Made by a program: the position numbers and the translations under genes. A DNA stretch of 64,000 nt from Ascidia mentula (lineage: Eukaryota > Chordata > Ascidiacea > Phlebobranchia > Ascidiidae). Each line of letters starts with the position of its first letter. The first letter of the stretch is position 1. This document shows, one piece after another, positions 4,888 through 59,210 of the stretch. The stretch spans positions 248,001 through 312,000 of the forward strand of contig OX387202.1 of NCBI GenBank assembly GCA_947561715.1, given 5' to 3'. The notes under the pieces are model-generated. The model saw only the letters and a list, made by a program, of their open reading frames with translations, was not told where the DNA came from and searched no databases.

Positions 4888-5103
4888 CCGCATTCTGCTC
4901 GACAGCAACGCCATAAACAAAATGTTGTTGCAGATGCATTGTCCCGGTCGTACATTGCCTCTGCAGGTCAAACATATATTGACCTTGATTACGCCCTCGC
5001 TGCTGCTCAACAAAGCCAATAAGTACAAGTATACCGCACAGCGCTTACCAAGTTAAAGCTTCAAGACATAAAGTTTGAACCCGGTTTAACGCTCTTATGT
5101 GAC

Positions 5104-5994
5104 ATGTCAACCGGTTCCCCTCGACCAATCATTCCACAACCATGGCAACGTCGTGTATTTGACGTGATTCACGGGTTGTCGCATCCTATTGTTCGAACCA
5201 CACAGAAGCTGGTATCAAGTAAATTTGTCTGGCATTGCATGAATAAGCAAGTTCTCACATGGGCTCAGCTGTGCTATGCTTGCCAGAAGGCAAAAGTTGG
5301 CAGACACACGCGTGCACCATTGAAGCATTATCCTACAGCTGAATGCCGTTTTCAACACATCAACGTTGACATTGTTGGGCCTCTTCCACAATGCCAAGGT
5401 AACAAAAACTTATTTACAATCGTTGATCGGTTTACTAGGTGACCTGTGGCTATACCTATGCCCGATGCTACCACAGAAACGTGCGCACGTGCTCTTGTTC
5501 ACCATTGGATAGCCCGATTTGGCGTTCCATCTCAAGTTACCTCCGATAGAGGTTCGCAATTTACATCGCATCTGTGGGCGACTGTTACCAACGTTATTGG
5601 TATTAAGCGCAACTGCACAACACCTTTAAGCCCTCAGGCAAATGGTCTTGTGGAACGTTTTCACTGGCACTTAATGAGTTCCTTAATGGCCAGACTCAAC
5701 TCTTCAAATTGGATAGATCAGGTGCCATGGGTGTACCCATGCCGAAAGATGATCTTCAATCCTCCAGCGATGAGCTGGTATATGGCGAACCGATCGCTGT
5801 ACCGGGTGATTGCATTCCGCACACCACCACTGCCGTTGAACCCTCGCAATTTGTTAAAACGCTTCGCAGTTCCGTTTCCCGTGTTCTACCTGTACCAATG
5901 TCCCGCCATCGAACTTATAGTACTTTTGTTCATGATTTGCTTTTTACTTGCGAGTATGCGTTTGTTCGGAAAGATGGATACTGTCCTCCTTTAA
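5104..5994 (+). pseudogene. Ty3/gypsy integrase (zinc finger and DDE core), interrupted
   Basis: The N-terminal H-H-C-C zinc finger is visible (HGLSHPIV ... CYACQKAKV). It is followed by the first catalytic Asp in HINVDIVGPLP, the second in VTSDRGSQFTS and the Glu in PQANGLVERFH, the D,D-35-E set of a retroviral-type integrase. A TGA at 5440-5442, right after VDRFTR, splits the core. After about 5700 the frame that matches the family moves to the next reading frame (5709-6197). It is therefore inactive as sequenced. Confidence 0.85.
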
Positions 5995-6870: not shown

Positions 6871-7725
6871 AATTTTCGAAAAAAATCTTTTTGCTACAAA
6901 TTTTCCAACGCCGAAAGGTTGTGTAATGTCGACCCTGATTGACAACACGCACGTGGTTAAACGCACAGTTTTCATGCCGGGTCAAATTTACTCGCAAAAC
7001 GTGGTGACTTACTTTTCTTGATGTACTTTAAAACACACTTACCCCTTATCAATCGCTAAAGTACGCGTTGTAATTTCCCGTTCGCCCGATGCCTTGGGAT
7101 GGGTTTCGATGAAAATAAACACGTTGTATCGATTGTGTTAAGGTCGCTGTAAAATTCACGGTGTAAATACACGAACGTATCGCGCGATCACCTTGTGTTC
7201 GTTTCAAAGCTTTCAAATGACTGAAGTAAATCAAAGAAACCGAGATCCTCAAGCGGCCATGGTTTGAATATGAGGTTGGACGGCATTGCACGAAATTGCC
7301 TGAATATAGTCTTGTGTCGGTAGCGATCGTGTTTCGCAAAGCAGGCGGGGATTTTGGACTTCTGCGATAAATGCAATGAAAACATTCACATACAGTTAAT
7401 AAGGAAACTGTCTTACCCGAGGTCGCTCACGCTTAACGGATCCGCTAATGTGGGTGTTTCGCGTTTTTGTCTTTGACAAGCCTAGATTAGTCATCGCGTC
7501 ACTTTATCGCCCGGCAATGAATTCCATTTCCTCGCATGCAGGAAACATGTGACTTTGATTCGGTTCAAAGAAGTCCACAACGTAGCGAAGTGAGTTCCGA
7601 ATCCTGTTGTCCGACGTCGAAGTCACGCTAAGTTAATGAAAAACTCGGGAGCTTTACCTCGTTGGGATTCGACTACTGATGTCGGTACCCGGTGTCGCAC
7701 TGTCAGGCGTCAACGGGCAAACGCG
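6871..7725. repeat. 855-bp tandem duplication, first unit
   Basis: Identical to 7726-8580 by eye except for one base (7270 T versus 8125 A). Both units are preceded by GCG, so the junction has short microhomology. The unit is the start of the segment that also occurs at 2207-3043. It contains no recognisable gene. Confidence 0.9.
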
Positions 7726-8580
7726 AATTTTCGAAAAAAATCTTTTTGCTACAAATTTTCCAACGCCGAAAGGTTGTGTAATGTCGACCCTGATTGACAA
7801 CACGCACGTGGTTAAACGCACAGTTTTCATGCCGGGTCAAATTTACTCGCAAAACGTGGTGACTTACTTTTCTTGATGTACTTTAAAACACACTTACCCC
7901 TTATCAATCGCTAAAGTACGCGTTGTAATTTCCCGTTCGCCCGATGCCTTGGGATGGGTTTCGATGAAAATAAACACGTTGTATCGATTGTGTTAAGGTC
8001 GCTGTAAAATTCACGGTGTAAATACACGAACGTATCGCGCGATCACCTTGTGTTCGTTTCAAAGCTTTCAAATGACTGAAGTAAATCAAAGAAACCGAGA
8101 TCCTCAAGCGGCCATGGTTTGAATAAGAGGTTGGACGGCATTGCACGAAATTGCCTGAATATAGTCTTGTGTCGGTAGCGATCGTGTTTCGCAAAGCAGG
8201 CGGGGATTTTGGACTTCTGCGATAAATGCAATGAAAACATTCACATACAGTTAATAAGGAAACTGTCTTACCCGAGGTCGCTCACGCTTAACGGATCCGC
8301 TAATGTGGGTGTTTCGCGTTTTTGTCTTTGACAAGCCTAGATTAGTCATCGCGTCACTTTATCGCCCGGCAATGAATTCCATTTCCTCGCATGCAGGAAA
8401 CATGTGACTTTGATTCGGTTCAAAGAAGTCCACAACGTAGCGAAGTGAGTTCCGAATCCTGTTGTCCGACGTCGAAGTCACGCTAAGTTAATGAAAAACT
8501 CGGGAGCTTTACCTCGTTGGGATTCGACTACTGATGTCGGTACCCGGTGTCGCACTGTCAGGCGTCAACGGGCAAACGCG
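7726..8580. repeat. 855-bp tandem duplication, second unit
   Basis: This is the second, almost identical unit, running straight on into the remainder of the segment (8581-8879) and the LRR exon at 8880. The near identity means a very recent event, or possibly an assembly artefact. Confidence 0.9.
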
Positions 8581-15600: not shown

Positions 15601-16257
15601 TCATCTCCCTTTAAAAAAAACGATTGTATCATCTGCAAACATTGAGACTTTAAATTCGTGTTGGTTAATTTGAATGCCTTGAAAGTTGGCCTTTTTAAGT
15701 GCGCTCGCAAGACATTCTATGCATAAAACAAAAAGAGAAAGTGGATCTCCTACTCCACGTTTAATTGTGAACTCCGGCGACAAGTGGTTGTTGTTTACTA
15801 TAATACCGGTTGGTTGCTGGTAAAAGTATTTGATCCAGGATTTAATTTGACTGCCAAACCCAAATATTTTGAGTACCTCGTAGATGAAGTCCCAGCTTAT
15901 GGCATCAAATGCCTTGTATATGTCCAAGGACAGTATCGCACCAGGGATATTACGAAAATCTGCGAAATCGAATACGTCGAACAAAAGGCGAATGTTCGTA
16001 CCAATATTTCTACCGGGTAGAAAGCCGTTTTGACTGGGAGAAATTAGTTGGTTCAAAACCGATTTTAATCGCGTGTTTATGACTTTGGAGGCAATTTTAT
16101 TATCTACGTTCAGTAGTGTTATCGGCCTGTAACTTGCCGGTAGGAGAGAGTCTTTTTCAGGTTTTGGTATTAATGTTACCACCCCCTGCACTTGCGTGTT
16201 GGAGAGCGCTCCAGTTGTCGTTGTGTATTTCCAAGCTGCCATAAACATGTTTTTCAA
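15601..16257 (-). pseudogene. LINE reverse transcriptase domain, copy 1
   Basis: The 218-residue frame holds the non-LTR RT blocks in order: VVTLIPKPEKD and YRPITLLNVDNKI (fingers), SPSQNGFLPGR, LSLDIYKAFDAISW (motif A with the first catalytic Asp), KRGVGDPLSLFVL (motif B) and VSMFADDTIVFF (motif C, F-A-D-D). The block style fits the Tx1/L1 clade. The frame breaks just after motif C in an A-rich run near 15601. Only the RT centre is intact, so it is not an active element. Confidence 0.9.
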
Positions 16258-16593
16258 GTTACTCCAAAAGGTTAAATAAAATTCTGCAGGAAAACCATCT
16301 AATCCGGGTGATTTGATTTTTCTATTTGCATTAGCGCCGTGTAAAACTCTTTTTCCGTAATTTCTGCATTTAATTCAAAGGCTAATTGTTCATAATTTTG
16401 GTCGATCAAGGTATTCTAATTTACGAGCGGTGGCATTAATATCCAGATTGTTTGCGTTTTGCTTGTACAGCTCTTCATAAAAATTAACAAGATCAGACAA
16501 AATAAGCTTCTGGTCTGTTATGATCTCAATGTCCGACCTTAATTTATCGATGGTCTCTTTTGGTTTTGTCGCTTCTCTAAGTTTAAAACGTAT

Positions 16594-25848: not shown

Positions 25849-25937
25849 GTAGAACTCGTATTGCTTAATACTGCTCTTCTGGCAAACTATTTTATTTACG
25901 ATAAGCATGTGGAGCCAATAATATGAATTTGTGTATA

Positions 25938-25990
25938 AGCTGCAGACAGATGGCCACTGTTTCGACCTAAAAGGTCTCATCAGTGCAGCT
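25938..25990 (-). ncRNA. Type I hammerhead ribozyme, unit 1
   Basis: On the minus strand: stem I strand AGCTGCA, core CTGATGA, stem II GACCT-TTT-AGGTC, core GAAA, stem III CAG...CTG, cleavage triplet GTC, stem I strand TGCAGCT. Stem I pairs perfectly over 7 bp. All conserved core bases are present. Confidence 0.92.
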
Positions 25991-26220
25991 GGTGTGACTA
26001 TCAGACGACTTTGCTGACCAAACGGCCAAGCAAAGACTTCCACTTTGTGGTGACTATACAGTCACCGTCATCCGTTGGGCACCAAACTAGGTGCAACCTT
26101 ACGGAGCAAACAAGGTGGAAACACTACGGCCAAGCAAGCTCAACCAATAGTGCCGTCAGGCCCCGTGTCACAATAATCTTATGATAAGCATGTGGAGCCA
26201 ATAATATGAATTTGTGTATA

Positions 26221-26273
26221 AGCTGCAGACAGATGGCCACTGTTTCGACCTAAAAGGTCTCATCAGTGCAGCT
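26221..26273 (-). ncRNA. Type I hammerhead ribozyme, unit 2
   Basis: Identical to the unit 1 ribozyme, exactly 283 bp away. Core CTGATGA and GAAA, 5-bp stem II, 3-bp stem III and 7-bp stem I are all intact. Confidence 0.92.
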
Positions 26274-26503
26274 GGTGTGACTATCAGACGACTTTGCAGA
26301 CCAAACGGCCAAGCAAAGACTTCCACTTTGTGGTGACTATACAGTCACCGTCATCCGTTGGGCACCAAACTAGGTGCAACCTTACGGAGCAAACAAGGTG
26401 GAAACACTACGGCCAAGCAAGCTCAACCAATAGTGCCGTCAGGCCCCGTGTCACAATAATCATATGATAAGCATGTGGAGCCAATAATATGAATTTGTGT
26501 ATA

Positions 26504-26556
26504 AGCTGCAGACAGATGGCCACTGTTTCGACCTAAAAGGTCTCATCAGTGCAGTT
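26504..26556 (-). ncRNA. Type I hammerhead ribozyme, unit 3 (one stem I change)
   Basis: Same as units 1 and 2 except that the 5' stem I strand reads AACTGCA, which loses one distal base pair with TGCAGCT. The core is intact, so cleavage is still plausible. Confidence 0.85.
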
Positions 26557-26586
26557 GGTGTGACTAAGTCGTCTGATAGTCACACC

Positions 26587-26639
26587 AGCTGCACTGATGA
26601 GACCTTTTAGGTCGAAACAGTGGCCATCTGTCTGCAGCT
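26587..26639 (+). ncRNA. Type I hammerhead ribozyme, inverted copy
   Basis: The same 53-nt ribozyme lies on the plus strand, only 30 bp after unit 3. The arms 26494-26566 and 26577-26649 form a near-perfect palindrome with a 10-bp centre, so either strand transcribed across it gives a long hairpin that would compete with ribozyme folding. Confidence 0.9.
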
Positions 26640-26656
26640 TATACACAAATATTTTA

Positions 26657-26703
26657 TTTACGTTTCTTGACGTTTCGGCTATTATGCAACAGCCTTCATC
26701 AGG
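26657..26703 (-). ncRNA. Hammerhead-like motif of the PLE 3' region
   Basis: Minus strand: CTGATGA, stem II AGGCT...AGCC, GAAA, stem III CGT...ACG and cleavage dinucleotide TA. The core, stem II and stem III are visible; a stem I partner is not convincing. Hammerheads in PLE terminal repeats are known, and this one differs in sequence from the 283-bp array. Confidence 0.65.
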
Positions 26704-26884
26704 AGGAAGAATGTAAGTTTAACAAAGTGGACACATTTGAGGCACATAAACAAAAAACTCTACAAAAGAAAGAAGAAGTAAAAAACGAAAAAGCGATAAG
26801 AGAGAGCACACCTGCACTGTATACTTATCACTAACCGCACGGTTTATCGTGCTGATGTCTATCGGCATGATTTTCTAGCAGGTG

Positions 26885-27331
26885 TCAGTACACCGGTGGA
26901 AACAGAGTTTGTTTCTTGTCATTGAGTGATGACACATGTCTGTTAATATTCAATGATTCTAAAAACATCCTCTTATATTTATCGGACTCGCGCTCCAAAA
27001 TGACTGTTCTTGAGAAGTCTATCGCATGTCCTGATTCGGCCGCATGTTGGGAAAGAGCCGTTTTTTCCTCATGGTTGTTTACGTCCCTTTGGTGCTCTTT
27101 TAACCTTGTTTTTAGTGCGCGGCCAGTTTCTCCAATATATACGCCGCTGCAACCACCGCATGGAATGCTGTAGACCACACCCCTCAGGTCGAGCTTATCG
27201 TGCGTGCGGTCTTTTGGGTGCGATATTAAGGAACGCAAGGTGACGGCCGAACGTTCAAAAACCTGAATATTAAAGTCGCCAAGCAGGCGTTTTAAAAGTT
27301 TCCGAAAGTTCAGAAATATACGGTAGTACAA
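26885..27331 (-). pseudogene. PLE GIY-YIG endonuclease domain
   Basis: The frame has GVVYSIPCGGCSGVYIGETG followed by RALKTRLKEHQRDV, the GIY-YIG nuclease core as found in Penelope-like elements (here V-V-Y...V-Y-I-G, with Arg of GETGR and the CxxC just before). Then come ALSQHAAESGHAIDF and the C-terminal block ESDKYKRMFLESLNIN, ending PPVY at the stop at 26885. It is joined to the RT part by a frameshift near 27300. The endonuclease would nick target DNA to prime reverse transcription. Confidence 0.9.
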
Positions 27332-27548
27332 CTACACCCGTAGGTTGTCCTTCATCACTTCTCCGCGTCAGGTTTCGATTATGCCGGAGAAAGGAAAGAG
27401 GATAACCGTTAGCAAGAAGCGCTTTATTAACATAACCCACATCTTGCTCGCGTTCAGCGTCATCAGTTATCAGTGATTCGGCTCGAGTATATAACGAGCG
27501 TACTACCGTCCTCTTGTGTGCGATCGGGTGCGCCGAACGAAACGACAA
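27270..27548 (-). pseudogene. PLE RT-to-endonuclease connector
   Basis: The frame begins SFRSAHPIAHKRTVVRSLYT, the 'SAHP..HKR..V..L..RA' block that follows the PLE reverse transcriptase, and continues with the long helical connector (ESLITDDAEREQDVGYVNKA). A frameshift at about 27300 moves the coding register to the endonuclease frame. Confidence 0.88.
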
Positions 27549-27745
27549 ATACGGTACACCCTTGTAGATAGAGTCCCCTGATCTTCTCTTCGAACCAGAA
27601 CATCTAAAAATGACAACTCACCCCCTCGCTCGCGCTGCATTGTGAACCCGATGCTCGGTTCAATTGAGTTAAGATGCGTGAGCAGTGACTGGACGTCATC
27701 CCGTCGCACGACCACGAATGTGTCGTCCACGTAAACAAACATGAG
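27503..27745 (-). pseudogene. PLE reverse transcriptase, C-terminal part
   Basis: FVYVDDTFVVVRRDDVQSLL carries the catalytic Y-V-D-D. It is followed by LNSIEPSIGFTMQRE and GELSFLDVLVRR, the blocks after the palm in PLE RTs. Everything upstream of the Y-V-D-D block is missing. At about 27745 the sequence turns into the inverted second copy (the plus-strand endonuclease end), so the frame that continues to 27802 is a chimera. Confidence 0.9.
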
Positions 27746-28200
27746 GAAAAACGGCTCTTTCCCAACATGCGGCCGAATCAGGACATGCGGTAGACTTCTC
27801 AAGAACAGTCATTTTTGAGCGCGAGTCCGATAAATATAAGAGGATGTTTTTAGAATCATTGAATATTAACACGCATGCGTCATCACTCAATGACAAGAAA
27901 CAAACTCTGTTTCCACCGGTGTACTGACACCTGCTAGAAAATCATGCCGATAGACATCAGCACTCCAAAAACCTCGATAAACCGTGCGGTTAATGATAAG
28001 TATACTGTGCAGGTGTGTTCTCTCTTATCGCTTTTCGTTTTTTACTTCTTCTTTCTTTTGTATCGTGTTTTGTTTATGTGCCTCAAATTGTCCACTTTGC
28101 TAAACTTACATTCTTACCTCCTGATGAAGGGCTGTTGCATAATAGCCAAACGTCGAGAAACGTAAATAAAATAGTTTGCCAGAAGAGCAGTATTAAGCAA
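27746..28200 (+). mobile_element. Inverted second copy of the PLE 3' part
   Basis: The plus strand encodes the end of the same endonuclease (CGGLLKNSHF region, then ERESDKYKRMFLESLNIN and SLNDKKQTLFPPVY), followed by the same 3' region, hammerhead-like motif and end. It is a diverged copy of minus-strand 27070-26650. Together they form a large inverted repeat of about 420 bp per arm. Confidence 0.85.
28121..28166 (+). ncRNA. Degenerate PLE hammerhead-like motif, inverted arm
   Basis: This is the plus-strand counterpart of 26657-26703. CTGATGA is kept, but the GAAA core after stem II reads CAAACG (one G lost), so the ribozyme is probably inactive. Confidence 0.55.
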
Positions 28201-28236
28201 CAAAATATGCCTGGCAGCATCAGTGATAATGTATTT

Positions 28237-29224
28237 GTAGAACTCGTATCTCTGTGTTCACGACAAAACATATGAGTTGTAAGTTTGAGTTTTCATGCCG
28301 GGTCAAATTTCCCCACAAAACCTTTCATTTTTCTTACTGATTTCAAAACACTGCAGCGTCAACAACGTAAATTTTCACAATTGTTTACAATCCACACCTA
28401 CGTCACGCTATTGTCACGTGATTGGACATTATTCTTTTCCAAGTTTGACTCATTTTGCAAAAACAGGGTTTTCCATTTTTATTTGGTTCATGACCTGTTT
28501 TTTCCCTTAGTTTCGAAGATATTTGGGGACTGAATGTTTTGAGTTGCATGCGTCAGTGTTTATACCGCAAACATTCGTGCAAACAATTGTTGTTAGAATT
28601 TCTAGTGAAAAGAAGATAACACGAATTTAAGTCTGCGGCATTAATTCGCGCGTAACACATAGGATATTTTGCCTTTCTCTTTACGTTCTCTCGCCTTGTG
28701 TTGTGTGTCGCGAATTTTGCATTGTTACACAACACAATCTGCAGAATGAAGAGCAACTCTCCTCACTGTGACGTAGAAAGACACGTCACGAACACTCTAA
28801 GTTAATTGCTTGATGTTCTGTCCAGCATTACTCCCTTGCTTACACAGTTCCGATACATTTTCGATTCAGCTTTTCGGATTGAATTTGATTTTGAGGCGAT
28901 TTCATCTGTTTTAAAGTTGTCGTATTTGTGTTTTATATTTGTCTGCTTCTATCATTTTACTCGATCAAAAAGATTTACACGTTTTATAGTTTTTTGAGGT
29001 AAAACAGATATTTGGTGAAATCAGTGCGAGGTATTTTTGGAATAAAAACTGCGAGATGCGCAGGCGCTTAATGTCGGTTGCTACTCGACGAAATAAAAAC
29101 AATGGAAGGTCAATACTTTCAACGACTTCATGTCAAATTTTCATCACCAAACATAAAGATCATATAACACCTGAAAACTGTGTTAAATTTAACAAAAGAT
29201 CACAATCGTTATTTTGTTGTTTGG
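28237..29224. repeat. Host segment, copy C continued after the PLE
   Basis: Non-coding. It matches 11330-12130 and then 12905-12960, resuming exactly at the second target-duplication copy. The gypsy element at 12149-12898 is absent here, so this is approximately the empty site for that element. Confidence 0.65.
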
Positions 29225-30893: not shown

Positions 30894-30944
30894 CTCCGTC
30901 AAGACGTTACTCTGGTTGAAATTCGGTGCAGCAGGAAATTCGGT

Positions 30945-31079
30945 AAAAGCTCTTCTGGCAAAAGAAAAACTTGTTTGTTCGACGTTTCGGTTGTTATACA
31001 ACAAACCTTCATCAGGATAATGAAGTAAAAACGCCCACACGGTGATAAATAAGCGTTTTTACTTCATTATCCTGATGAA
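30945..31079 (-). mobile_element. PLE 3'-end fragment with hammerhead-like motif and palindrome
   Basis: The minus strand has CTGATGA (31015-31009), a stem II with loop, and CCGAAACGTCG, followed by GCCAGAAGAGC as in the PLE at 25862-28236, so it is a related PLE end. Sequence 31009-31042 is repeated inverted at 31048-31079, giving a hairpin of about 30 bp per arm. It ends exactly where FN3 coding sequence resumes. Confidence 0.65.
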
Positions 31080-31186
31080 CGTATCTGTGGCTTCACTCAA
31101 TCCTGCTACTCGATATTCTGTCAATGTGACGGCAGTCCTCAACTTTGGGGTCAAAGAAGTTACCTCAGTTCATGAGTTCGTCACTC
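31080..31186 (+). pseudogene. FN3 module, 3' part of a broken exon
   Basis: The frame ending at the GTAAGT donor (31187) gives ASLNPATRYSVNVTAVLNFG and VTSVHEFVT, the E-F-G strands of a fibronectin type III domain with the usual L-x-P-x-T-x-Y-x-V pattern. It ends in phase 1 like all the other FN3 exons downstream. The first ~155 nt of the exon are missing because the PLE fragment ends at about 31079. Confidence 0.7.
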
Positions 31187-33304: not shown

Positions 33305-33870
33305 AGGGCGAAATTAACTAAATTTGACAGTAGTATGCCTGTGCTTTAAACAATTTTAAATCAAGCGACTTGAAATTTTGCACACAAATGTTAGATGTCA
33401 GTACAAAACGAGAAATGAAAACTATATTGGCGTATGTCCTTTAGAATTTTATTGCTTGCCGAAAACGCATGTTTGACACTATAGTGGCTAATGTTCGGCG
33501 GATTAACTAAATTTGACAGTTGTCCGCCTGTGATTTCAACATTTTTATATCAAGCGACTTGAATTTTTGCTCAAAAATATTAGATGCCACTACAAAACGA
33601 GCAATGAAAACTAAATTGACGTGTGTCCTTTAGTTTCTTATTGCTGCGCGAAAACACATGTCACAAACAATGGTCGCTAAGGTTCGGCGGTTTTGACTAA
33701 ATTTGAGAGTTGTCCGACTGTGATTTAAACATTTTTATATCAAGCGACTTGAAATTTTGCTCACAAATATTAGATGCCACTACAAAACGAGCAATGAAAA
33801 CTAAATTGGCGTATGTCTTTTAGTTTCTTATTGCTGCGCGAAAACGCATGTTACAAACATTGGTCGCCAA

Positions 33871-35776
33871 GGTCGTGCGGAATTAACTAATTTTGAGAAT
33901 TCCCGCCGGCAATATAAACAATTTTCAATCAAGCGACCTGAAATTTTGCTCACAAATATTAGATGCCACTACAAAACGAGCAATGAAAACTAAATTGACG
34001 TGTGTCCTTTAGTTTCTTATTGCTGCGCGAAAACACATGTCACAAACAATGGTCGCTAAGGTTCGGCGGTTTTGACTAAATTTGACAGTTGTCCGCCTGT
34101 GATTTCAACATTTTTTAAATCAAGCGACTTGAAATTTTGTACACAAATATTAGATGCCACTACAAAACGAGCAATGAAAACCAAATTGATCGTATGTCCT
34201 TTAGTTTCTTATTGCTGCGCGAAAACGCATGTTACAAACAATGGTCGCTAAGGTTCGGCGGCTTTGACTAAATTTGAGAGTTGTCCGCCTGTGATTTCAA
34301 CATTTTTAAATCAAGCGACTTGAAATTTTGCACACAAATATTAGATGCCACTACAAAACGAACAATGAAAACTAAATTGATCGTATGTCCTTTAGTTTCT
34401 TATTGCTGCGCGAAAACGCATGTTACAAACAATGGTCGCTAAGGTTCGGCGGTTTTGACTAAATTTGACAGTTGTCCGCCTGTGATTTCAACATTTTTAT
34501 ATCAAGCGACTTGAATTTTTGTTCACAAATATTAGATGTCACTACAAAACGAGCAATGAAAACCAAATTGATCGTATGTCCTTTAGTTTCTTATTGCTGC
34601 GCGAAAACGCAAGTTACAAACAATGGTCGCTAAGGTTCGGCGGTTTTGACTAAATTTGAGAGTTGTCCGCATGCGATTTCAACATTTTTAAATCAAGCGA
34701 CTTGAAATTTTGCACACAAATATTAGATGCCACTACAAAACGAGAAATGAAAACTAAATTGGCGTATGTCCTTTAGTTTCTTATTGCTGCGCGAAAACGC
34801 ATGTTACAAACAATGGTCGCTAAGGTCGTGCGGAATAAACTAATTTTGAGATTTCCCGCCGGCAATATAAACAATTTTCAATCAAGCGACCTGAAATTTT
34901 GCTCACAAATATTAGATGCCACTACAAAACGAGCAATGAAAACTAAATTGACGTGTGTCCTTTAGTTTCTTATTGCTGCGCGAAAACACATGTCACAAAC
35001 AATGGTCGCTAAGGTTCGGCGGTTTTGACTAAATTTGACAGTTGTCCGCCTGTGATTTCAACATTTTTTAAATCAAGCGACTTGAAATTTTGTACACAAA
35101 TATTAGATGCCACTACAAAACGAGCAATGAAAACCAAATTGATCGTATGTCCTTTAGTTTCTTATTGCTGCGCGAAAACGCATGTTACAAACAATGGTCG
35201 CTAAGGTTCGGCGGCTTTGACTAAATTTGAGAGTTGTCCGCCTGTGATTTCAACATTTATATATCAAGCGACTTGAAATTTTGCACACAAATATTAGATG
35301 CCACTACAAAACGAACAATGAAAACTAAATTGATCGTATGTCCTTTAGTTTCTTATTGCTGCGCGAAAACGCATGTTACAAACAATGGTCGCTAAGGTTC
35401 GGCGGTTTTGACTAAATTTGACAGTTGTCCGCCTGTGATTTCAACATTTTTATATCAAGCGACTTGAATTTTTGTTCACAAATATTAGATGTCACTACAA
35501 AACGAGCAATGAAAACCAAATTGATCGTATGTCCTTTAGTTTCTTATTGCTGCGCGAAAACGCAAGTTACAAACAATGGTCGCTAAGGTTCGGCGGTTTT
35601 GACTAAATTTGAGAGTTGTCCGCATGCGATTTCAACATTTTTAAATCAAGCGACTTGAAATTTTGCACACAAATATTAGATGCCACTACAAAACGAGAAA
35701 TGAAAACTAAATTGGCGTATGTCCTTTAGTTTCTTATTGCTGCGCGAAAACGCATGTTACAAACAATGGTCGCTAA
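33871..35776. repeat. Two copies of a 953-bp five-monomer higher-order unit
   Basis: The GGTCGTGCGG variant starts at 33871, 34824 and 35777, exactly 953 bp apart, and the monomers between follow the same order with near identity (for example the ACGTGTGTCC, then GATCGTATGTCC variants). It is a local five-monomer repeat inside the satellite. Confidence 0.88.
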
Positions 35777-38589
35777 GGTCGTGCGGAATAAACTAATTTT
35801 GAGATTTCCCGCCGGCAATATAAACAATTTTCAATAAAGCGACCTGAAATTTTGCACACAAATACTAGGTGCCACTACAAAACGAAAAATGAAAACTAGA
35901 TTGGCGTCTGTCCTTTAGAATTTTATTGCTTGCCGAAAACGCATGTTTCAAACTATGGTGGCTAAGGTTCGGCGATTTTAACTAAATTTGACAGTTGTCC
36001 GCCTGTGATTTCAACATTTTTATATCAAGCGACTTGAAGTTTTGCACACAAATATTAGATGCCACTACAAAACGAGCAATGAAAACTAAATTAACGTGTG
36101 TCCTTTAGTTTCTTATTGCTGCGCGAAAACACATGTCACAAACAATGGTCGCTAAGGTTCGTCGGATTAACTAAATTTGACAGTTGTCCGCCTGTGATTT
36201 CAACATTTTTATATCAAGCGACTTGAATTTTTGCTCACAAATATTAGATGCCACTACAAAACGAGCAATGAAAACTAAATTGACGTGTGTCCTTTAGTTT
36301 CTTATTGCTGCGCGAAAACACATGTCACAAACAATGGTCGCTAAGGTTCGGCGGTTTTGACTAAATTTGACAGTTGTCCGACTGTGATTTTAACATTTTT
36401 ATATCAAGCGACTTGAAATTTTGCACACAAATATTAGATGCCACTACAAAACGAGCAATGAAAACTAAATTGGCGTATGTCCTTTAGTTTCTTATTGCTG
36501 CGCGAAAACGCATGTTACAAACAATGGTCGCTAAGGTTCGGCGGTTTTGACTAAGTTTGACAGTTGTCCGCCTGTGATTTCAACATTTTTATATCAAGCG
36601 ACTTGAATTTTTGCTCACAAATATTAGATGCCACTACAAAACGAGAAATGAAAACTAAATTGGCGTCTGTCTTTCAGAATTTTATTGCTGCGCGAAAACG
36701 CATGTTACAAACAATGGTCGCTAAGGTCGTGCGGAATTAACTAATTTTGAGAATTCCCGCCGGCAATATAAACAATTTTCAATAAAGCGACCTGAAATTT
36801 TGCACACAAAAACTAGGTGCTTCTACAAAACAAGCAATGAAAACTATATTGGCGTCTGTCCTTTAGAATTTTGTTGCTTGCCGAAAACGCACGTTTGAAA
36901 CTATGGTGGCTAAGCTTCGGCGGATTAACTAAATTTGACAGTTGTCCGCCTGTGATTTCAACATTTTTGTATCAAGCGACTTGAATTTTTGCTCACAAAC
37001 ATTAGATGTCACTACAAAACGAGCAATGAAAACCAAATTGATCGTATGTCCTTAAGTTTCTTATTGCTGCGCGAAAACGCATGTTACAAACAATGGTCGC
37101 TAAGGTTCGGCAGTTTTGACTAAATTTGAGATTTGTCCGCCTGTGATTTCAACATTTTTATATCAAGCGACTTGAAGTTTTGCACACAAATATTAGATGC
37201 CACTACAAAACGAGCAATGAAAACTAAATTGACGTGTGTCCTTTAGTTTCTTATTGCTGCGCGAAAACACATGTCACAAACAATGGTCGCTAAGGTTCGG
37301 CAGTTTTGACTAAATTTGAGAGTTGTCCGCCTGTGATTTCAACATTTTTATATCAAGCGACTTGAAATTTTGCACACAAATATTAGATGCCACTACAAAA
37401 CGAAAAATGAAACTAGATTGGCGTCTTTCCTTTAGAATTTTATTGCTTGCCGAAAACGCATGTTTCAAACTATGGTGGCTAAGGTTCGGCGATTTTAACT
37501 AAATTTGACAGTTGTCCGCCTGTGATTTCAACATTTTTATATCAAGCGACTTGAAGTTTTGCACACAAATATTAGATGCCACTACAAAACGAGCAATGAA
37601 AACTAAATTGACGTGTGTCCTTAAGTTTCTTATTGCTGCGCGAAAACGCATGTCACAAACAATGGTCGCTAAGGTCGTGCGGAATAAACTAATTTTGAGA
37701 TTTCCCGCCGGCAATATAAACAATTTTCAATCAAGCGACCTGAAATTTTGCACACAAATATTAGATGCCACTACAAAACGAAAAATGAAAACTAGATTGC
37801 CGTCTGTCCTTTAGAATTTTATTGCTTGCCGAAAACGCATGTTTCAAACTATGGTGGCTAAGGTTCGGCGATTTTAACTAAATTTGACAGTTGTCCGCCT
37901 GTGATTTCAACATTTTTATATCAAGCGACTTGAAGTTTTGCACACAAATATTAGATGCCACTACAAAACGAGCAATGAAAACTAAATTGACGTGTGTCCT
38001 TTAGTTTCTTATTGCTGCGCGAAAACACATGTCACAAACAATGGTCGCTAAGGTTCGGCGGATTAACTAAATTTGACAGTTGTCCGCCTGTGATTTCAAC
38101 ATTTTTATATCAAGCGACTTGAATTTTTGCTCACAAATATTAGATGCCACTACAAAACGAGCAATGAAAACTAAATTGACGTGTGTCCTTTAGTTTCTTA
38201 TTGCTGCGCGAAAACACATGTCACAAACAATGGTCGCTAAGGTTCGGCGGTTTTGACTAAATTTGACAGTTGTCCGACTGTGATTTTAACATTTTTATAT
38301 CAAGCGACTTGAAATTTTGCACACAAATATTAGATGCCACTACAAAACGAGCAATGAAAACTAAATTGGCGTATGTCCTTTAGTTTCTTATTGCTGCGCG
38401 AAAACGCATGTTACAAACAATGGTCGCTAAGGTTCGGCGGTTTTGACTAAGTTTGACAGTTGTCCGCCTGTGATTTCAACATTTTTATATCAAGCGACTT
38501 GAATTTTTGCTCACAAATATTAGATGCCACTACAAAACGAAAAATGAAAACTAAATTGGCGTCTGTCTTTCAGAATTTTATTGCTGCGC

Positions 38590-41500
38590 GAAAACGCATG
38601 TTACAAACAATGGTCGCTAAGGTCGTGCGGAATTAACTAATTTTGAGAATTCCCGCCGGCAATATAAACAATTTTCAATAAAGCGACCTGAAATTTTGCA
38701 CACAAAAACTAGGTGCTTCTACAAAACAAGCAATGAAAACTATATTGGCGTCTGTCCTTTAGAATTTTGTTGCTTGCCGAAAACGCACGTTTGAAACTAT
38801 GGTGGCTAAGCTTCGGCGGATTAACTAAATTTGACAGTTGTCCGCCTGTGATTTCAACATTTTTGTATCAAGCGACTTGAATTTTTGCTCACAAACATTA
38901 GATGTCACTACAAAACGAGCAATGAAAACCAAATTGATCGTATGTCCTTAAGTTTCTTATTGCTGCGCGAAAACGCATGTTACAAACAATGGTCGCTAAG
39001 GTTCGGCAGTTTTGACTAAATTTGACAGTTGTCCGACTGTGATTTTAACATTTTTATATCAAGCGACTTGAAATTTTGCACACAAATATTAGATGCCACT
39101 ACAAAACGAGCAATGAAAACTAAATTGGCGTATGTCCTTTAGTTTCTTATTGCTGCGCGAAAACGCATGTTACAAACAATGGTCGCTAAGGTTCGGCGGT
39201 TTTGACTAAATTTGACAGTTGTCCGCCTGTGATTTCAACATTTTTATATCAAGCGACTTGAATTTTTGCTCACAAATATTAGATGCCACTACAAAACGAA
39301 AAATGAAAACTAAATTGGCGTCTGTCTTTCAGAATTTTATTGCTGCGCGAAAACGCATGTTACAAACAATGGTCGCTAAGGTCGTGCGGAATTAACTAAT
39401 TTTGAGAATTCCCGCCGGCAATATAAACAATTTTCAATAAAGCGACCTGAAATTTTGCACACAAAAACTAGGTGCTTCTACAAAACAAGCAATGAAAACT
39501 ATATTGGCGTCTGTCCTTTAGAATTTTGTTGCTTGCCGAAAACGCACGTTTGAAACTATGGTGGCTAAGCTTCGGCGGATTAACTAAATTTGACAGTTGT
39601 CCGCCTGTGATTTCAACATTTTTGTATCAAGCGACTTGAATTTTTGCTCACAAACATTAGATGCCACTACAAAACGAGCAATGAAAACCAAATTGATCGT
39701 ATGTCCTTAAGTTTCTTATTGCTGCGCGAAAACGCATGTTACAAACAATGGTCGCTAAGGTTCGGCAGTTTTGACTAAATTTGAGAGTTGTCCGCCTGTG
39801 ATTTCAACATTTTTATATCAAGCGACTTGAAATTTTGCACACAAATATTAGATGTCATTACAAAACGAAAAATGAAAACTAGATTGGCGTCTGACCTTTA
39901 GAATTTTATTGCTTGCCGAAAACGCATGTTTCAAACTATGGTGGCTAAGGTTCGGCGATTTTAACTAAATTTGACAGCTGTCCGCCTGTGATTTCAACAT
40001 TATTATATCAAGCGACTTGAAGTTTTGCACACAAATATTAGATGCCACTACAAAACGAGCAATGAAAACTAAATTGACGTGTGTCCTTTAGTTTCTTATT
40101 GCTGCGCGAAAACACATGTCACAAACAATGGTCGCTAAGGTTCGGCGGATTAACTAAATTTGACAGTTGTCCGCCTGTGATTTCAACATTTTTATATCAA
40201 GCGACTTGAATTTTTGCTCACAAATATTAGATGCCACTACAAAACGAGCAATGAAAACTAAATTGACGTGTGTCCTTTAGTTTCTTATTGCTGCGCGAAA
40301 ACACATGTCACAAACAATGGTCGCTAAGGTTCGGCGGTTTTGACTGAATTTGACAGTTGTCCGACTGTGATTTTAACATTTTTATATCAAGCGACTTGAA
40401 ATTTTGCACACAAATATTAGATGCCACTACAAAACGAGCAATGAAAACTAAATTGGCGTATGTCCTTTAGTTTCTTATTGCTGCGCGAAAACGCATGTTA
40501 CAAACAATGGTCGCTAAGGTTCGGCGGTTTTGACTAAGTTTGACAGTTGTCCGCCTGTGATTTCAACATTTTTATATCAAGCGACTTGAATTTTTGCTCA
40601 CAAATATTAGATGCCACTACAAAACGAGAAATGAAAACTAAATTGGCGTCTGTCTTTCAGAATTTTATTGCTGCGCGAAAACGCATGTTACAAACAATGG
40701 TCGCTAAGGTCGTGCGGAATTAACTAATTTTGAGAATTCCCGCCGGCAATATAAACAATTTTCAATAAAGCGACCTGAAATTTTGCACACAAAAACTAGG
40801 TGCTTCTACAAAACAAACAATGAAAACTATATTGGCGTCTGTCCTTTAGAATTTTGTTGCTTGCCGAAAACGCACGTTTGAAACTATGGTGGCTAAGCTT
40901 CGGCGGATTAACTAAATTTGACAGTTGTCCGCCTGTGAATTTAACATTTTTGTATCAAGCGACTTGAATTTTTGCTCACAAACATTAGATGTCACTACAA
41001 AACGAGCAATGAAAACCAAATTGATCGTATGTCCTTAAGTTTCTTATTGCTGCGTGAAAACGCATGTTACAAACAATGGTCGCTAAGGTTCGGCAGTTTT
41101 GACTAAATTTGAGAGTTGTCCGCCTGTGATTTCAACATTTTTATATCAAGCGACTTGAAATTTTGCACACAAATATTAGATGCCACTACAAAACGAAAAA
41201 TGAAACTAGTTTGGCGTCTGTCCTTTAGAATTTTATTGCTTGCCGAAAACGCATGTTTCAAACTATGGTGGCTAAGGTTCGGCGATTTTAACTAAATTTG
41301 ACAGTTGTCCGCCTGTGATTTCAACATTTTTATATCAAGCGACTTGAAGTTTTGCACACAAATATTAGATGCCACTACAAAACGAGCAATGAAAACTAAA
41401 TTGACGTGTGTCCTTTAGTTTCTTATTGCTGCGCGAAAACACATGTCACAAACAATGGTCGCTAAGGTTCGGCGGATTAACTAAATTTGACAGTTGTCCG

Positions 41501-44500
41501 CCTGTGATTTCAACATTTTTATATCAAGCGACTTGAATTTTTGCTCACAAATATTAGATGCCACTACAAAACGAGCAATGAAAACTAAATTGACGTGTGT
41601 CCTTTAGTTTCTTATTGCTGCGCGAAAACACATGTTACAAACAATGGTCGCTAAGGTCGTGCGGAATTAACTAATTTTGAGAATTCCCGCCGGCAATATA
41701 AACAATTTTCAATAAAGCGACCTGAAATTTTGCACACAAAAACTAGGTGCTTCTACAAAACAAGCAATGAAAACTATATTGGCGTCTGTCCTTTAGAATT
41801 TTGTTGCTTGCCGAAAACGCACGTTTGAAACTATGGTGGCTAAGCTTCGGCGGATTAACTAAATTTGACAGTTGTCCGCCTGTGATTTCAACATTTTTGT
41901 ATCAAGCGACTTGAATTTTTGCTCACAAACATTAGATGTCACTACAAAACGAGCAATGAAAACCAAATTGATCGTATGTCCTTAAGTTTCTTATTGCTGC
42001 GCGAAAACGCATGTTACAAACAATGGTCGCTAAGGTTCGGCAGTTTTGACTAAATTTGACAGTTGTCCGACTGTGATTTTAACATTTTTATATCAAGCGA
42101 CTTGAAATTTTGCACACAAATATTAGATGCCACTACAAAACGAGCAATGAAAACTAAATTGGCGTATGTCCTTTAGTTTCTTATTGCTGCGCGAAAACGC
42201 ATGTTACAAACAATGGTCGCTAAGGTTCGGCGGTTTTGACTAAGTTTGACAGTTGTCCGCCTGTGATTTCAACATTTTTATATCAAGCGACTTGAATTTT
42301 TGCTCACAAATATTAGATGCCACTACAAAACGAAAAATGAAAACAAAATTGGCGTCTGTCTTTCAGAATTTTATTGCTGCGCGAAAACGCATGTTACAAA
42401 CAATGGTCGCTAAGGTCGTGCGGAATTAACTAATTTTGAGAATTCCCGCCGGCAATATAAACAATTTTCAATAAAGCGACCTGAAATTTTGCACACAAAA
42501 ACTAGGTGCTTCTACAAAACAAGCAATGAAAACTATATTGGCGTCTGTCCTTTAGAATTTTGTTGCTTGCCGAAAACGCACGTTTGAAACTATGGTGGCT
42601 AAGCTTCGGCGGATTAACTAAATTTGACAGTTGTCCGCCTGTGATTTCAACATTTTTGTATCAAGCGACTTGAATTTTTGCTCACAAACATTAGATGCCA
42701 CTACAAAACGAGCAATGAAAACCAAATTGATCGTATGTCCTTAAGTTTCTTATTGCTGCGCGAAAACGCATGTTACAAACAATGGTCGCTAAGGTTCGGC
42801 AGTTTTGACTAAATTTGAGAGTTGTCCGCCTGTGATTTCAACATTTTTATATCAAGCGACTTGAAATTTTGCACACAAATATTAGATGTCATTACAAAAC
42901 GAAAAATGAAAACTAGATTGGCGTCTGACCTTTAGAATTTTATTGCTTGCCGAAAACGCATGTTTCAAACTATGGTGGCTAAGGTTCGGCGATTTTAACT
43001 AAATTTGACAGCTGTCCGCCTGTGATTTCAACATTATTATATCAAGCGACTTGAAGTTTTGCACACAAATATTAGATGCCACTACAAAACGAGCAATGAA
43101 AACTAAATTGACGTGTGTCCTTTAGTTTCTTATTGCTGCGCGAAAACACATGTCACAAACAATGGTCGCTAAGGTTCGGCGGATTAACTAAATTTGACAG
43201 TTGTCCGCCTGTGATTTCAACATTTTTATATCAAGCGACTTGAATTTTTGCTCACAAATATTAGATGCCACTACAAAACGAGCAATGAAAACTAAATTGA
43301 CGTGTGTCCTTTAGTTTCTTATTGCTGCGCGAAAACACATGTCACAAACAATGGTCGCTAAGGTTCGGCGGTTTTGACTGAATTTGACAGTTGTCCGACT
43401 GTGATTTTAACATTTTTATATCAAGCGACTTGAAATTTTGCACACAAATATTAGATGCCACTACAAAACGAGCAATGAAAACTAAATTGGCGTATGTCCT
43501 TTAGTTTCTTATTGCTGCGCGAAAACGCATGTTACAAACAATGGTCGCTAAGGTTCGGCGGTTTTGACTAAGTTTGACAGTTGTCCGCCTGTGATTTCAA
43601 CATTTTTATATCAAGCGACTTGAATTTTTGCTCACAAATATTAGATGCCACTACAAAACGAGAAATGAAAACTAAATTGGCGTCTGTCTTTCAGAATTTT
43701 ATTGCTGCGCGAAAACGCATGTTACAAACAATGGTCGCTAAGGTCGTGCGGAATTAACTAATTTTGAGAATTCCCGCCGGCAATATAAACAATTTTCAAT
43801 AAAGCGACCTGAAATTTTGCACACAAAAACTAGGTGCTTCTACAAAACAAACAATGAAAACTATATTGGCGTCTGTCCTTTAGAATTTTGTTGCTTGCCG
43901 AAAACGCACGTTTGAAACTATGGTGGCTAAGCTTCGGCGGATTAACTAAATTTGACAGTTGTCCGCCTGTGAATTTAACATTTTTGTATCAAGCGACTTG
44001 AATTTTTGCTCACAAACATTAGATGTCACTACAAAACGAGCAATGAAAACCAAATTGATCGTATGTCCTTAAGTTTCTTATTGCTGCGTGAAAACGCATG
44101 TTACAAACAATGGTCGCTAAGGTTCGGCAGTTTTGACTAAATTTGAGAGTTGTCCGCCTGTGATTTCAACATTTTTATATCAAGCGACTTGAAATTTTGC
44201 ACACAAATATTAGATGCCACTACAAAACGAAAAATGAAACTAGTTTGGCGTCTGTCCTTTAGAATTTTATTGCTTGCCGAAAACGCATGTTTCAAACTAT
44301 GGTGGCTAAGGTTCGGCGATTTTAACTAAATTTGACAGTTGTCCGCCTGTGATTTCAACATTTTTATATCAAGCGACTTGAAGTTTTGCACACAAATATT
44401 AGATGCCACTACAAAACGAGCAATGAAAACTAAATTGACGTGTGTCCTTTAGTTTCTTATTGCTGCGCGAAAACACATGTCACAAACAATGGTCGCTAAG

Positions 44501-44665
44501 GTTCGGCGGATTAACTAAATTTGACAGTTGTCCGCCTGTGATTTCAACATTTTTATATCAAGCGACTTGAATTTTTGCTCACAAATATTAGATGCCACTA
44601 CAAAACGAGCAATGAAAACTAAATTGACGTGTGTCCTTTAGTTTCTTATTGCTGCGCGAAAACAC
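38590..44665. repeat. 3,034-bp tandem superrepeat (16 monomers) x 2
   Basis: Variant starts at 38621, 39380 and 40708 recur at 41655, 42414 and 43742, all shifted by 3,034 bp. Private variants (GACAGCTGTCC with ATTATTATATC, GACTGAATTTG, TGCGTGAAAACG, GAAACTAGTTTGG) recur at the same offset. The copies diverge at about 38590/41625 on the left and 41630/44665 on the right. Confidence 0.88.
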
Positions 44666-47600
44666 ATGTCACAAACAATGGTCGCTAAGGTTCGGCGGTT
44701 TTGAATAAATTTGACAGTTGTCCGACTGTGATTTTAACATTTTTATATCAAGCGACTTGAAATTTTGCACACAAATATTAGATGCCACTACAAAACGAGA
44801 AATGAAAACTAAATTGGCGTATGTCCTTTAGTTTCTTATTGCTGCGCGAAAACGCATGTTACAAACAATGGTCGCTAAGGTCGTGCGGAATTAACTAATT
44901 TTGAGAATTCCCGCCGGCAATATAAACAATTTTCAATAAAGCGACCTGAAATTTTGCACACAAAAACTAGGTGCTTCTACAAAACAAGCAATGAAAACTA
45001 TATTGGCGTCTGTCCTTTAGAATTTTGTTGCTTGCCGAAAACGCACGTTTGAAACTATGGTGGCTAAGCTTCGGCGGATTAACTAAATTTGACAGTTGTC
45101 CGCCTGTGATTTCAACATTTTTGTATCAAGCGACTTGAATTTTTGGTCACAAACATTAGATGTCACTACAAAACGAGCAATGAAAACCAAATTGATCGTA
45201 TGTCCTTAAGTTTCTTATTGCTGCGCGAAAACGCATGTTACAAACAATGGTCGCTAAGGTTCGGCGGTTTTGACTAAATTTGACAGTTGTCCGACTGTGA
45301 TTTTAACATTTTTAAATCAAGCGACTTGAAATTTTGCACACAAATATTAGATGCCACTACAAAACGAGCAATGAAAACTAAATTGGCGTCTGTCCTTTAG
45401 TTTCTTATTGCTGCGCGAAAACGCATGTTACAAACAATGGTCGCTAAGTCGTGCGGAATAAACTAATTTTGAGATTTCCCGCCGGCAATATAAACAATTT
45501 TCAATCAAGCGACCTGAAATTTTGCACACAAATACTAGGTGCCACTACAAAACGAAAAATGAAAACTAGATTGGCGTCTGTCCTTTAGAATTTTATTGCT
45601 TGCCGAAAACGCATGTTTCAAACTATGGTGGCTAAGGTTCGGCGATTTTAACTAAATTTGACAGTTGTCCGCCTGTGATTTCAACATTTTTATATCAAGC
45701 GACTTGAAGTTTTGCTCACAAATATTAGATGCCAATACAAAACGAGCAATGAAAACTAAATGGACGTATGTCCTTTAGTTTCTTATTGCTGCGCGAAAAC
45801 GCAAGTTACAAACAATGGTCGCTAAGGTTCGGCGGTTTTGACTAAATTTGAGAGTTGTCCGCCTGTGATTTCAACATTTTTATATCAAGCGACTTGAAAT
45901 TTTGTACACAAATATTAGATGCTACTACAAAACGAGCAATGAAAACTAAATTGGCGTATGTCCTTTAGTTTCTTATTGCTGCGCGAAAACGCATGTTACA
46001 AACAATGGTCGCTAAGGTTCGGCGGTTTTGACTAAATTTGACAGTTGTCCACCTGTGATTTCAACATTTTTATATCAAGCGACCTGAAATTTTGCACACA
46101 AATATTAGATGCCACTACAAAACGAGAAATGAAAACTAAATTGGCGTCTGTCCTTCAGAATTTTATTGCTGCGCGAAAACGCATGTTACAAACAATGGTC
46201 GCTAAGGTTCGGCGGTTTTGACTAAATTTGACAGTTGTCCGCCTGTGATTTCAACATTTTTATATCAAGCGACTTGAAATTTTGCACACAAATATTAGAT
46301 GCCACTACAAAACGAGAAATGAAAACTAAATTGGCGTATGTCCTTTAGTTTCTTATTGCTGCGCGAAAACGCATGTTACAAACAATGGTCGCTAAGGTCG
46401 TGCGGAATTAACTAATTTTGAGAATTCCCGCCGGCAATATAAACAATTTTCAATAAAGCGACCTGAAATTTTGCACACAAAAACTAGGTGCTTCTACAAA
46501 ACAAGCAATGAAAACTATATTGGCGTCTGTCCTTTAGAATTTTGTTGCTTGCCGAAAACGCACGTTTGAAACTATGGTGGCTAAGCTTCGGCGGATTAAC
46601 TAAATTTGACAGTTGTCCGCCTGTGATTTCAACATTTTTGTATCAAGCGACTTGAATTTTTGCTCACAAACATTAGATGTCACTACAAAACGAGCAATGA
46701 AAACCAAATTGATCGTATGTCCTTAAGTTTCTTATTGCTGCGCGAAAACGCATGTTACAAACAATGGTCGCTAAGGTTCGGCAGTTTTGACTAAATTTGA
46801 CAGTTGTCCGACTGTGATTTTAACATTTTTATATCAAGCGACTTGAAATTTTGCACACAAATATTAGATGCCACTACAAAACGAGCAATGAAAACTAAAT
46901 TGGCGTATGTCCTTTAGTTTCTTATTGCTGCGCGAAAACGCATGTTACAAACAATGGTCGCTAAGGTTCGGCGGTTTTGACTAAATTTGACAGTTGTCCG
47001 CCTGTGATTTCAACATTTTTATATCAAGCGACTTGAATTTTTGCTCACAAATATTAGATGCCACTACAAAACGAAAAATGAAAACTAAATTGGCGTCTGT
47101 CTTTCAGAATTTTATTGCTGCGCGAAAACGCATGTTACAAACAATGGTCGCTAAGGTCGTGCGGAATTAACTAATTTTGAGAATTCCCGCCGGCAATATA
47201 AACAATTTTCAATAAAGCGACCTGAAATTTTGCACACAAAAACTAGGTGCTTCTACAAAACAAGCAATGAAAACTATATTGGCGTCTGTCCTTTAGAATT
47301 TTGTTGCTTGCCGAAAACGCACGTTTGAAACTATGGTGGCTAAGCTTCGGCGGATTAACTAAATTTGACAGTTGTCCGCCTGTGATTTCAACATTTTTGT
47401 ATCAAGCGACTTGAATTTTTGCTCACAAACATTAGATGTCACTACAAAACGAGCAATGAAAACCAAATTGATCGTATGTCCTTAAGTTTCTTATTGCTGC
47501 GCGAAAACGCATGTTACAAACAATGGTCGCTAAGGTTCGGCAGTTTTGACTAAATTTGACAGTTGTCCGACTGTGATTTTAACATTTTTATATCAAGCGA

Positions 47601-58492: not shown

Positions 58493-58556
58493 GCTTCCAG
58501 TGGGGTTCGAACTCACGCCCTGTGAATCTATCGATTATTTGAACCGAACGAATTCA
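58493..58556 (-). repeat. tRNA-like (SINE) fragment in an intron
   Basis: The minus strand has GAGTTCGAACCCCACTGG (B box plus 3' arm) after a stretch shared with 29996-30062. This is the second copy of the same SINE-like piece. Confidence 0.55.
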
Positions 58557-58571
58557 TTTGTTTCGCTTCAG

Positions 58572-58844
58572 AGCCAGCCATGATGACTGGATCGTTTACG
58601 GTGAGCAATGAAACGCAGACCAGTGTGGGTGTGACGTTTACCCCGCCACTAGGTGGCAGTGAGATCGATGGTTACGTATTCTTATATTCCTCCACAACAA
58701 CAAGCGGATTGTACGTTCATCCTTCAACTGACTTTAGCTGTGTCATATCCCCGTTATCTCCCAATACAAACTACACGTTTGTCGGTTTCGCTTACAACCA
58801 AGCCGGGAATGCAACACATTCTCTTCCATTCCATGCAACCACAG
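58572..58844 (+). CDS. FN3 exon 6
   Basis: A 273-nt phase 1-1 exon (CTTCAG / GTACGA). It encodes TSVGVTFTPPLGGSEIDGYV, then ISPLSPNTNYTFVGFAYNQA and GNATHS, a clear FN3 module with PPxGGSxIxGY and LxPNTxYxF motifs and one or more N-glycosylation sites. Confidence 0.85.
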
Positions 58845-58906
58845 GTACGACCGAGCTTCCGTTGCCACCAATAAGTTCATCAACAATTCCACTTCTACCC
58901 TCACAG

Positions 58907-59179: not shown

Positions 59180-59210
59180 GTAGGAAATTGGTAAAACTTG
59201 AATTAAAAAA

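Follow-up and report, generated by a model that had tools for sequence, protein, structure and literature searches.

A retrozyme family in the ascidian Ascidia mentula with a Penelope-type insertion footprint

The 64,000-nt stretch of DNA analysed here, referred to as the window, contains a new family of a known kind of element, the retrozyme. The copy in the window is very probably a young, non-coding and non-autonomous retrozyme of the animal type, mobilised in trans by the reverse transcriptase/endonuclease of a Penelope-type element (PLE). The argument rests on how the family inserts. In all 27 independent two-armed insertions with a clear target duplication, one arm ends at a site termed S and the other at a second site, T, and the same arrangement is seen in PLE families resident in the same genome. 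This PLE-type insertion footprint argues strongly for copying of the retrozyme by Penelope-type enzymes.

The retrozyme in the window

An earlier note, made from the sequence alone, had described 283-bp tandem units on the minus strand as a candidate animal retrozyme. The tandem units were recovered by TRF (25896-26566, period 283, 2.4 copies, 98% match), and the retrozyme reading is supported by the unit size, the type I hammerhead ribozymes, a GC content of 47.7% (0.477), the target duplication and the lack of a reading frame; as the note had stated, no listed ORF of at least 120 aa overlaps the array. LTR, PBS and PPT were looked for by eye in the element and none was recognised. The insertion measures 749 bp and consists of two arms joined head to head (Table 1). 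Its two full units, described previously as nearly identical, differ at 2 positions, and the window unit departs at a single base from the majority sequence among 63 sampled insertions, which fits the view that the copy is young. Beyond what had been noticed before, the element was found to contain a fourth hammerhead in an inverted arm, to be flanked by 13-bp target duplications and to be seated inside a PLE.

A structural scan of both strands identified four type I hammerheads in the 64-kb window, all of them inside the retrozyme. In a similar scan requiring a stem I of at least 5 bp, 100 shuffled windows, in which dinucleotide composition was approximately preserved, averaged 0.03 hammerheads and never gave more than one, as against the four observed. 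Two copies (26273-26221 and 25990-25938) are complete, with stems I, II and III of 7, 5 and 3 bp and stem III extended at its base by an A-U pair; for these the scan gave the same cleavage positions as had been predicted. In the third minus-strand copy (26554-26506) a mismatch reduces stem I to 5 bp. The inverted arm, with its own hammerhead, and the first copy on the minus strand together make up a palindrome; Rfam matches to MIR807 and mir-4672 fall on this palindrome of the two arms and were rejected. Loop II is 3 nt long, and by eye there is no obvious partner for a contact between loops 1 and 2; mussel hammerheads also lack most of the canonical loop contacts (PMC7229834).

The covariance check proposed in the note failed: an Rfam search gave no match at the gathering score. 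At E values up to 10, Hammerhead_3 was matched at 20.6-20.7 bits (cut-off 48.5) and RAGATH-1 at 18.2-21.9 bits (cut-off 56.3). Hammerhead_1, a member of the same clan as Hammerhead_3, was absent from these matches, the search tool reporting a single top match for each clan. With the Rfam models below threshold, the hammerhead call rests on the core and helices rather than on a curated model. Across the genome, RF00163 gave seven sub-threshold matches among 73 scored of 27659 candidates, a search that is non-exhaustive because of this sampling; the match on contig C1, the only one comparable with the listed retrozyme places, overlaps none of them. The monomer hammerhead is predicted to fold at -16.0 kcal/mol as against -17.4 kcal/mol for a competing fold, which is thus favoured by 1.4 kcal/mol. 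Two copies together are predicted to form a dimer fold with a joint stem III (-47.7 kcal/mol).

Table 1. Features of the retrozyme insertion and of the PLE that hosts it (window coordinates)
Feature	Position	Strand	Basis
Retrozyme insertion, two arms head to head, 749 bp	25901..26649	.	identical 13-bp duplications on both sides
Minus-strand arm of ~2.35 283-bp units, ending on its outer side at T (u44)	25901..26566	-	tandem repeat and arm mapping
Inverted arm, outer end at S site (u17-u20, by assignment of shared bases)	26566..26649	+	
Hammerhead type I, complete, predicted cleavage 26228/26227	26221..26273	-	structural scan
Hammerhead type I, complete, predicted cleavage 25945/25944	25938..25990	-	structural scan
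Third hammerhead, stem I only 5 bp	26506..26554	-	structural scan
Fourth hammerhead, in inverted arm, stems 7/5/3	26587..26639	+	structural scan
Target site duplication TATTTTATTTACG, left copy	25888..25900	.	sequence identity
Target site duplication TATTTTATTTACG, right copy	26650..26662	.	sequence identity
Empty-site equivalent, reverse complement CGTAAATAAAATA, in other arm of host PLE	28161..28173	+	read and compared
Host PLE (PLE-A), head-to-head, split by retrozyme; minus arm ends S, plus arm T	25862..28236	.	
Host PLE target duplication GTAGAACTCGTAT, left copy	25849..25861	.	
Host PLE target duplication GTAGAACTCGTAT, right copy	28237..28249	.	
Minimal PLE-type hammerhead of host PLE	26669..26702	-	
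PLE ORF piece, GIY-YIG endonuclease-like motif	26888..27331	-	Pfam GIY-YIG 17.9 bits, cut-off 22.6
PLE ORF piece, YVDD reverse-transcriptase-like motif	27506..27808	-	motif

The identical copies of TATTTTATTTACG set the bounds of the insertion. The retrozyme lies just downstream of the minimal hammerhead of its host, a PLE that is itself built of two inverted arms. The other arm of this host (~27.73-28.24 kb, plus strand; inverted identity 92.9% over 448 bp) contains an uninterrupted CGTAAATAAAATA, beyond which it continues with the sequence of the far flank of the retrozyme insertion, and so provides an empty site within the window. The ORF piece with the GIY-YIG-like motif has 22 homologues, 7 of them with a precomputed PF01541 assignment. 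Pfam gave no match on the second PLE ORF pieces, including the one with YVDD, which is taken here as a reverse-transcriptase-like motif. PLE open frames of 810, 828 and 841 aa are present in the genome. Endonuclease-bearing PLEs, together with a fibronectin type III-rich gene in the window, point to an animal as the source.

Insertion anatomy of the retrozyme and of resident PLEs

The genome search for further copies suggested in the note was productive: a 27-nt hammerhead core, with at most one mismatch allowed, gave 1217 matches in the 195.8-Mb genome and none in a reversed control. This dispersal, together with the presence of PLEs in the same genome, lends further support to the animal retrozyme reading. 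Loci L001-L080 were surveyed. The first thirty (L001-L030) are the top DNA matches (40 scored of 2310 candidates), and long and young copies are therefore over-represented among them; L031-L080 are the first pattern matches by position on contig C1, up to 14.8 Mb. After overlaps were merged there were 71 clusters, of which one at a locus edge was left out. The remaining 70 comprise 33 '-+', 3 '-++', 15 '+', 17 '-', 1 '-+-' and 1 '+-++', where '-+' denotes arms that are head to head with their RNA-3' ends outward. Two head-to-head arms are present in 36 of the 70 insertions and a single detected arm in 32, although arms under ~20 bp would escape detection. A target duplication was considered clear when it outscored each of 205 shuffled pairings of flanks, which reached at most 8.0. 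Leaving out 28 clusters without a clear duplication and one that shares the duplication of another, 41 independent insertions have one, which is 12 or 13 bp long in 25 of them.

Positions in the unit are numbered from the first base after the predicted cleavage site (u1). Outer RNA-3' ends fall within u7-u58 of the 283-nt unit in 103 of 106 cases; 5' ends and inner junctions are scattered over the unit. When trimmed to the duplication, the outer ends are bimodal, with S at u10-u20 and T at u36-u48, or ~15 and ~42 nt past the cleavage site, and the tail that separates them (T minus S) is 23-32 nt long (median 28). The pairing of one S with one T end in 27 of 27 insertions was reached in 0 of 100,000 permutations. 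Without the duplication filter it is seen in 35 of the 36 two-armed clusters; of these 35, two have one duplication in common and represent one event, and the sole exception is a diverged fragment of 40+40 bp. Of 35 two-armed insertions, 24 include an arm that exceeds one unit in length, so the search for the hammerhead core cannot have forced those ends. The longer arm carries S in 16 insertions and T in 19, with no bias. In the predicted fold of the circular RNA, S (u8-u28) is unpaired, as is u40-u43, on which the T ends are centred; some of them, though, are located in u44-u49, which is paired.

Between different insertions divergence is 3.7%, as against 1.7% between arms of one insertion and 1.1% between units within an arm, suggesting that many insertions derive from one RNA or from near-identical RNAs. 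In just 9 of 36 comparisons, however, was the nearest relative of an arm its partner, which ranked among the closest 10% in 22, and the two arms of L002 are 6.4% apart, so that two RNA molecules can be used for one insertion. The longest arm is 1679 bp (5.9 units), for which a circular or multimeric template is needed. Only 4 of 111 5' ends fall at u1-u3, where ~1 is expected; this lack of a pile-up at the predicted cleavage site makes cleaved linear monomers unlikely as the usual template and speaks against run-off at a ribozyme-cut end. At least one base is shared at 28 of 38 arm junctions, a raw count that includes chance sharing. Among the first 100 listed places, retrozyme hammerheads that neighbour one another within 2 kb are arranged as 9 '-+', 0 '+-' and 11 same-orientation pairs.

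The host PLE in the window follows the S/T rule, as do other members of PLE-A. In all 17 PLE-A loci read (L081-L097), one arm ends at AAGCA(A/G) and the other runs on through a ~30-nt tail. Six of these were picked by coordinates alone before the tail was known, three were picked as SS by pattern and eight as already discordant; because of this last choice only nine of the 17 are tests. The two ends are 28-41 nt apart, mostly 30-35, the retrozyme tail being slightly shorter, and the duplications found are mostly 12-14 bp. A pattern count over the first 100 of 218 listed places gave 28 '-+' pairs, of which 22 are discordant, 5 SS and 1 TT. Reading was extended to three of these five SS pairs, all of which proved discordant, so pattern-based calls under-count T tails in PLE-A. 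Among the first 100 listed places, PLE hammerheads within 5 kb of one another form 20 '-+' and 0 '+-' pairs; with a second pattern for PLE-A, 28 neighbour pairs were '-+' and a single one '+-'. For a second family, PLE-B, one S and one T arm were found in 10 of 11 loci picked by coordinates, L101 being unreadable with the core pattern. The window also holds a PLE-B element at 30900-31100, with an inverted junction of its own, and its relatives show the S/T rule.

The target preference of the retrozyme matches that of the resident PLEs only partly. AAC occurs at 38 of 70 outer duplication edges of the retrozyme (35 sites kept, those with mismatched duplications being left out) against a background of 0.073. 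The preference is symmetric (AAC, duplication, GTT), equivalent to a cut N^GTT on both strands, and is stronger than in PLE-A (6/29 edges) or PLE-B (4/20), where it is weak against the same background. The duplications of L087, L088, L098 and L104/L105 are unclear, automatically wrong or assigned by eye only, and the automatic edges of L087, L098 and L104/L105 are kept in these PLE counts. Given this difference, neither sampled family need be the partner of the retrozyme; that role may fall to a further family of PLEs, a third one, or to an enzyme of the same mechanism with another preference. The similarity of the PLE-A tail to the retrozyme is not significant (630 of 2000 mononucleotide and 1617 of 2000 dinucleotide shuffles are as good), nor is that of the PLE-B tail (86 of 2000 shuffles as good, with an equally high reversed control). 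By eye, PLE-B and the retrozyme both have the heptamer CACAAAT close to their S end, which may be chance.

A proposed mechanism for retrozyme insertion and its alternatives

PLEs are known to have a one-sided tail of ~31 bp and head-to-head arms (PMC3846280). A purified PLE from Anolis cleaves and extends both target strands, starting at two adjacent internal sites that match the PLE tail (PMC11167929). From this biochemistry and from published retrozymes, the early part of the cycle can be proposed: retrozyme arrays would be transcribed, the hammerheads of neighbouring units would cut the RNA into 283-nt monomers, probably as dimers, and a host ligase would circularise these. Cleavage as dimers within the multimer, with the monomer circles protected, is a plausible inference. 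A PLE enzyme would then make staggered cuts ~12-13 bp apart in the two strands of an AT-rich target, so that 3' overhangs result. From each overhang reverse transcription would be primed on retrozyme RNA, at S in one case and at T in the other. The two cDNAs would circle the template for anything from a fraction of a turn to six turns before being joined 5' to 5', often across a few shared bases, and gap filling would produce the target duplication. Antisense cDNA made from each primer would place the '-' arm on the left and the '+' arm on the right, matching the observed order. These steps, from target cleavage to joining, explain the insertion anatomy; that the acting enzyme is a PLE we infer from the same biochemistry and published retrozymes. 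The dependence of retrozymes on PLE enzymes, put forward in the earlier note, gains added support from the PLE-type one-sided tail.

Several other explanations were weighed against trans-mobilisation by a PLE. In a snap-back model, of the kind proposed in 2013 for a bdelloid Penelope (PMC3846280), a single cDNA or antisense strand would fold back and copy itself into the inverted arm. This would account for the head-to-head palindromes typical of PLEs (PMC3846280) and for the window copy, whose two junction phases are just 11 nt apart (u228/u217). Self-copying should, however, end where the first arm ends, and in each of the 27 clear cases the two arms end at different sites; moreover, at 20 of 38 '-+' junctions the two phases lie more than 50 nt from each other around the unit. 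The arms of one insertion (L002, C70:14536583-14540252) differ by 6.4%, as against 0.8% for units within one arm, a clear case of two RNA templates used in a single event. Snap-back copying, already disfavoured, is thus very unlikely here. Mobilisation by a LINE, for example a relative of the reverse transcriptase remnant at 15604-16374 (Pfam RVT_1, read as LINE-like), is likewise very unlikely. Ordinary twin priming is known for L1, yet the outer ends of the retrozyme lie at two fixed internal sites, in a pattern equal to that of PLEs from the same genome. An ordinary satellite or local tandem duplication arising without retrotransposition would explain the tandem repeat structure; it is refuted by the target duplications, present in 41 independent insertions, and by the empty site in the window, to which the 1217 core matches genome-wide may be added, and it retains practically no probability.

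A further alternative accepts a PLE as the enzyme and takes an uncleaved linear multimer as the template, so that neither the ribozyme nor a circle would be needed. The activity of the Anolis PLE in vitro is independent of hammerhead cleavage (PMC11167929), and the monomer hammerhead is predicted to prefer its competing fold, both of which this alternative would accommodate. Against it, the hammerhead columns are less variable than the rest of the unit (0.008 vs 0.029, with ascertainment bias at u245-u271), and known animal retrozymes accumulate as circles (PMC7229834). A linear template is therefore considered unlikely, though to be taken more seriously than the alternatives above. Within the PLE-mobilised reading, a more specific proposal is that retrozyme RNA is a purpose-built substrate of a two-headed PLE complex, a dimer that would start one reverse transcription reaction per target strand, at two fixed sites separated by 28 nt. 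This is put forward tentatively, at a little under an even chance. If it is true, the pair of cDNAs would follow one another around the circle. The signals carried by this non-coding circle would then be the smallest set that suffices for retrotransposition by PLEs, and a tail on one side only could serve generally as a diagnostic, in genomes, of RNA that PLEs have mobilised.

Relation to known elements and other features of the window

The family resembles the metazoan non-LTR retrozymes described by Cervera and de la Pena in 2020 (PMC7229834) in its tandem units of 283 bp (within a range of 170-400), type I hammerheads, absence of an ORF, GC content below 50%, target duplication longer than 4 bp and co-resident PLEs. 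It differs from those described in that about half of its sampled insertions are two-armed and head-to-head, almost always with an S/T pair of ends, and in that the canonical loop-loop contacts of the hammerhead are not evident. A word search of the main text of PMC7229834 found inverted, twin and head-to-head to be absent. The hammerhead repeats of newt and axolotl, as far as they are described there, share a weak stem III, a palindromic stretch in the loop and a predicted dimer fold; they are unlike the present family in unit length (~330-350 bp vs 283) and, by description, in stem III (3-4 bp).

With EN-containing PLEs the retrozyme shares inverted head-to-head arms, a ~30-nt tail on one arm, a hammerhead upstream of the 3' end and AT-rich targets (PMC3846280, PMC11167929). 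Unlike PLEs, it is without protein, encoding neither reverse transcriptase nor GIY-YIG (no ORF of at least 120 aa); its hammerhead is of type I with a stem III rather than of the minimal PLE form; its 283-nt unit is repeated up to about six times per arm; and it has no significant sequence similarity to them.

According to a 2020 review (PMC7761336), PLEs are the likely movers of retrozymes, on the basis of shared hammerheads and co-occurrence, and retrozyme repeats are without a conserved motif that would reveal their autonomous partner. An insertion footprint offers direct evidence on the enzyme that moves retrozymes where sequence motifs give none, and any assembled genome with retrozymes is open to the same test. 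A footprint of one S and one T end was not found described for retrozymes in the literature searched, largely as listings and main-text passages. For PLE insertion itself, the S/T rule in a non-coding template that is copied over several turns favours priming at two sites and disfavours snap-back copying.

The window contains several further repeats and gene fragments. Integrase zinc-binding and core pieces are found at 5023-5991, the core scoring 32.4 bits, just under the cut-off. Identical stop-to-stop stretches of 125 residues at 7052-7426 and 7907-8281 (minus strand) represent a local duplication. A satellite array at 33314-53253 consists of ~105 copies of a 190-bp unit, for which TRF also gives a period of 379 bp. 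It is followed at 53629-56394 by a 20-bp tandem array (138 copies, 79% match), the minus strand of which is open over long stretches, up to 411 codons from stop to stop. Finally, exons of a fibronectin type III-rich gene lie on the plus strand at 58500-62000, with Pfam fn3 matches in both pieces scanned and a 29-bp repeat array inside the gene region at 59209-60270.
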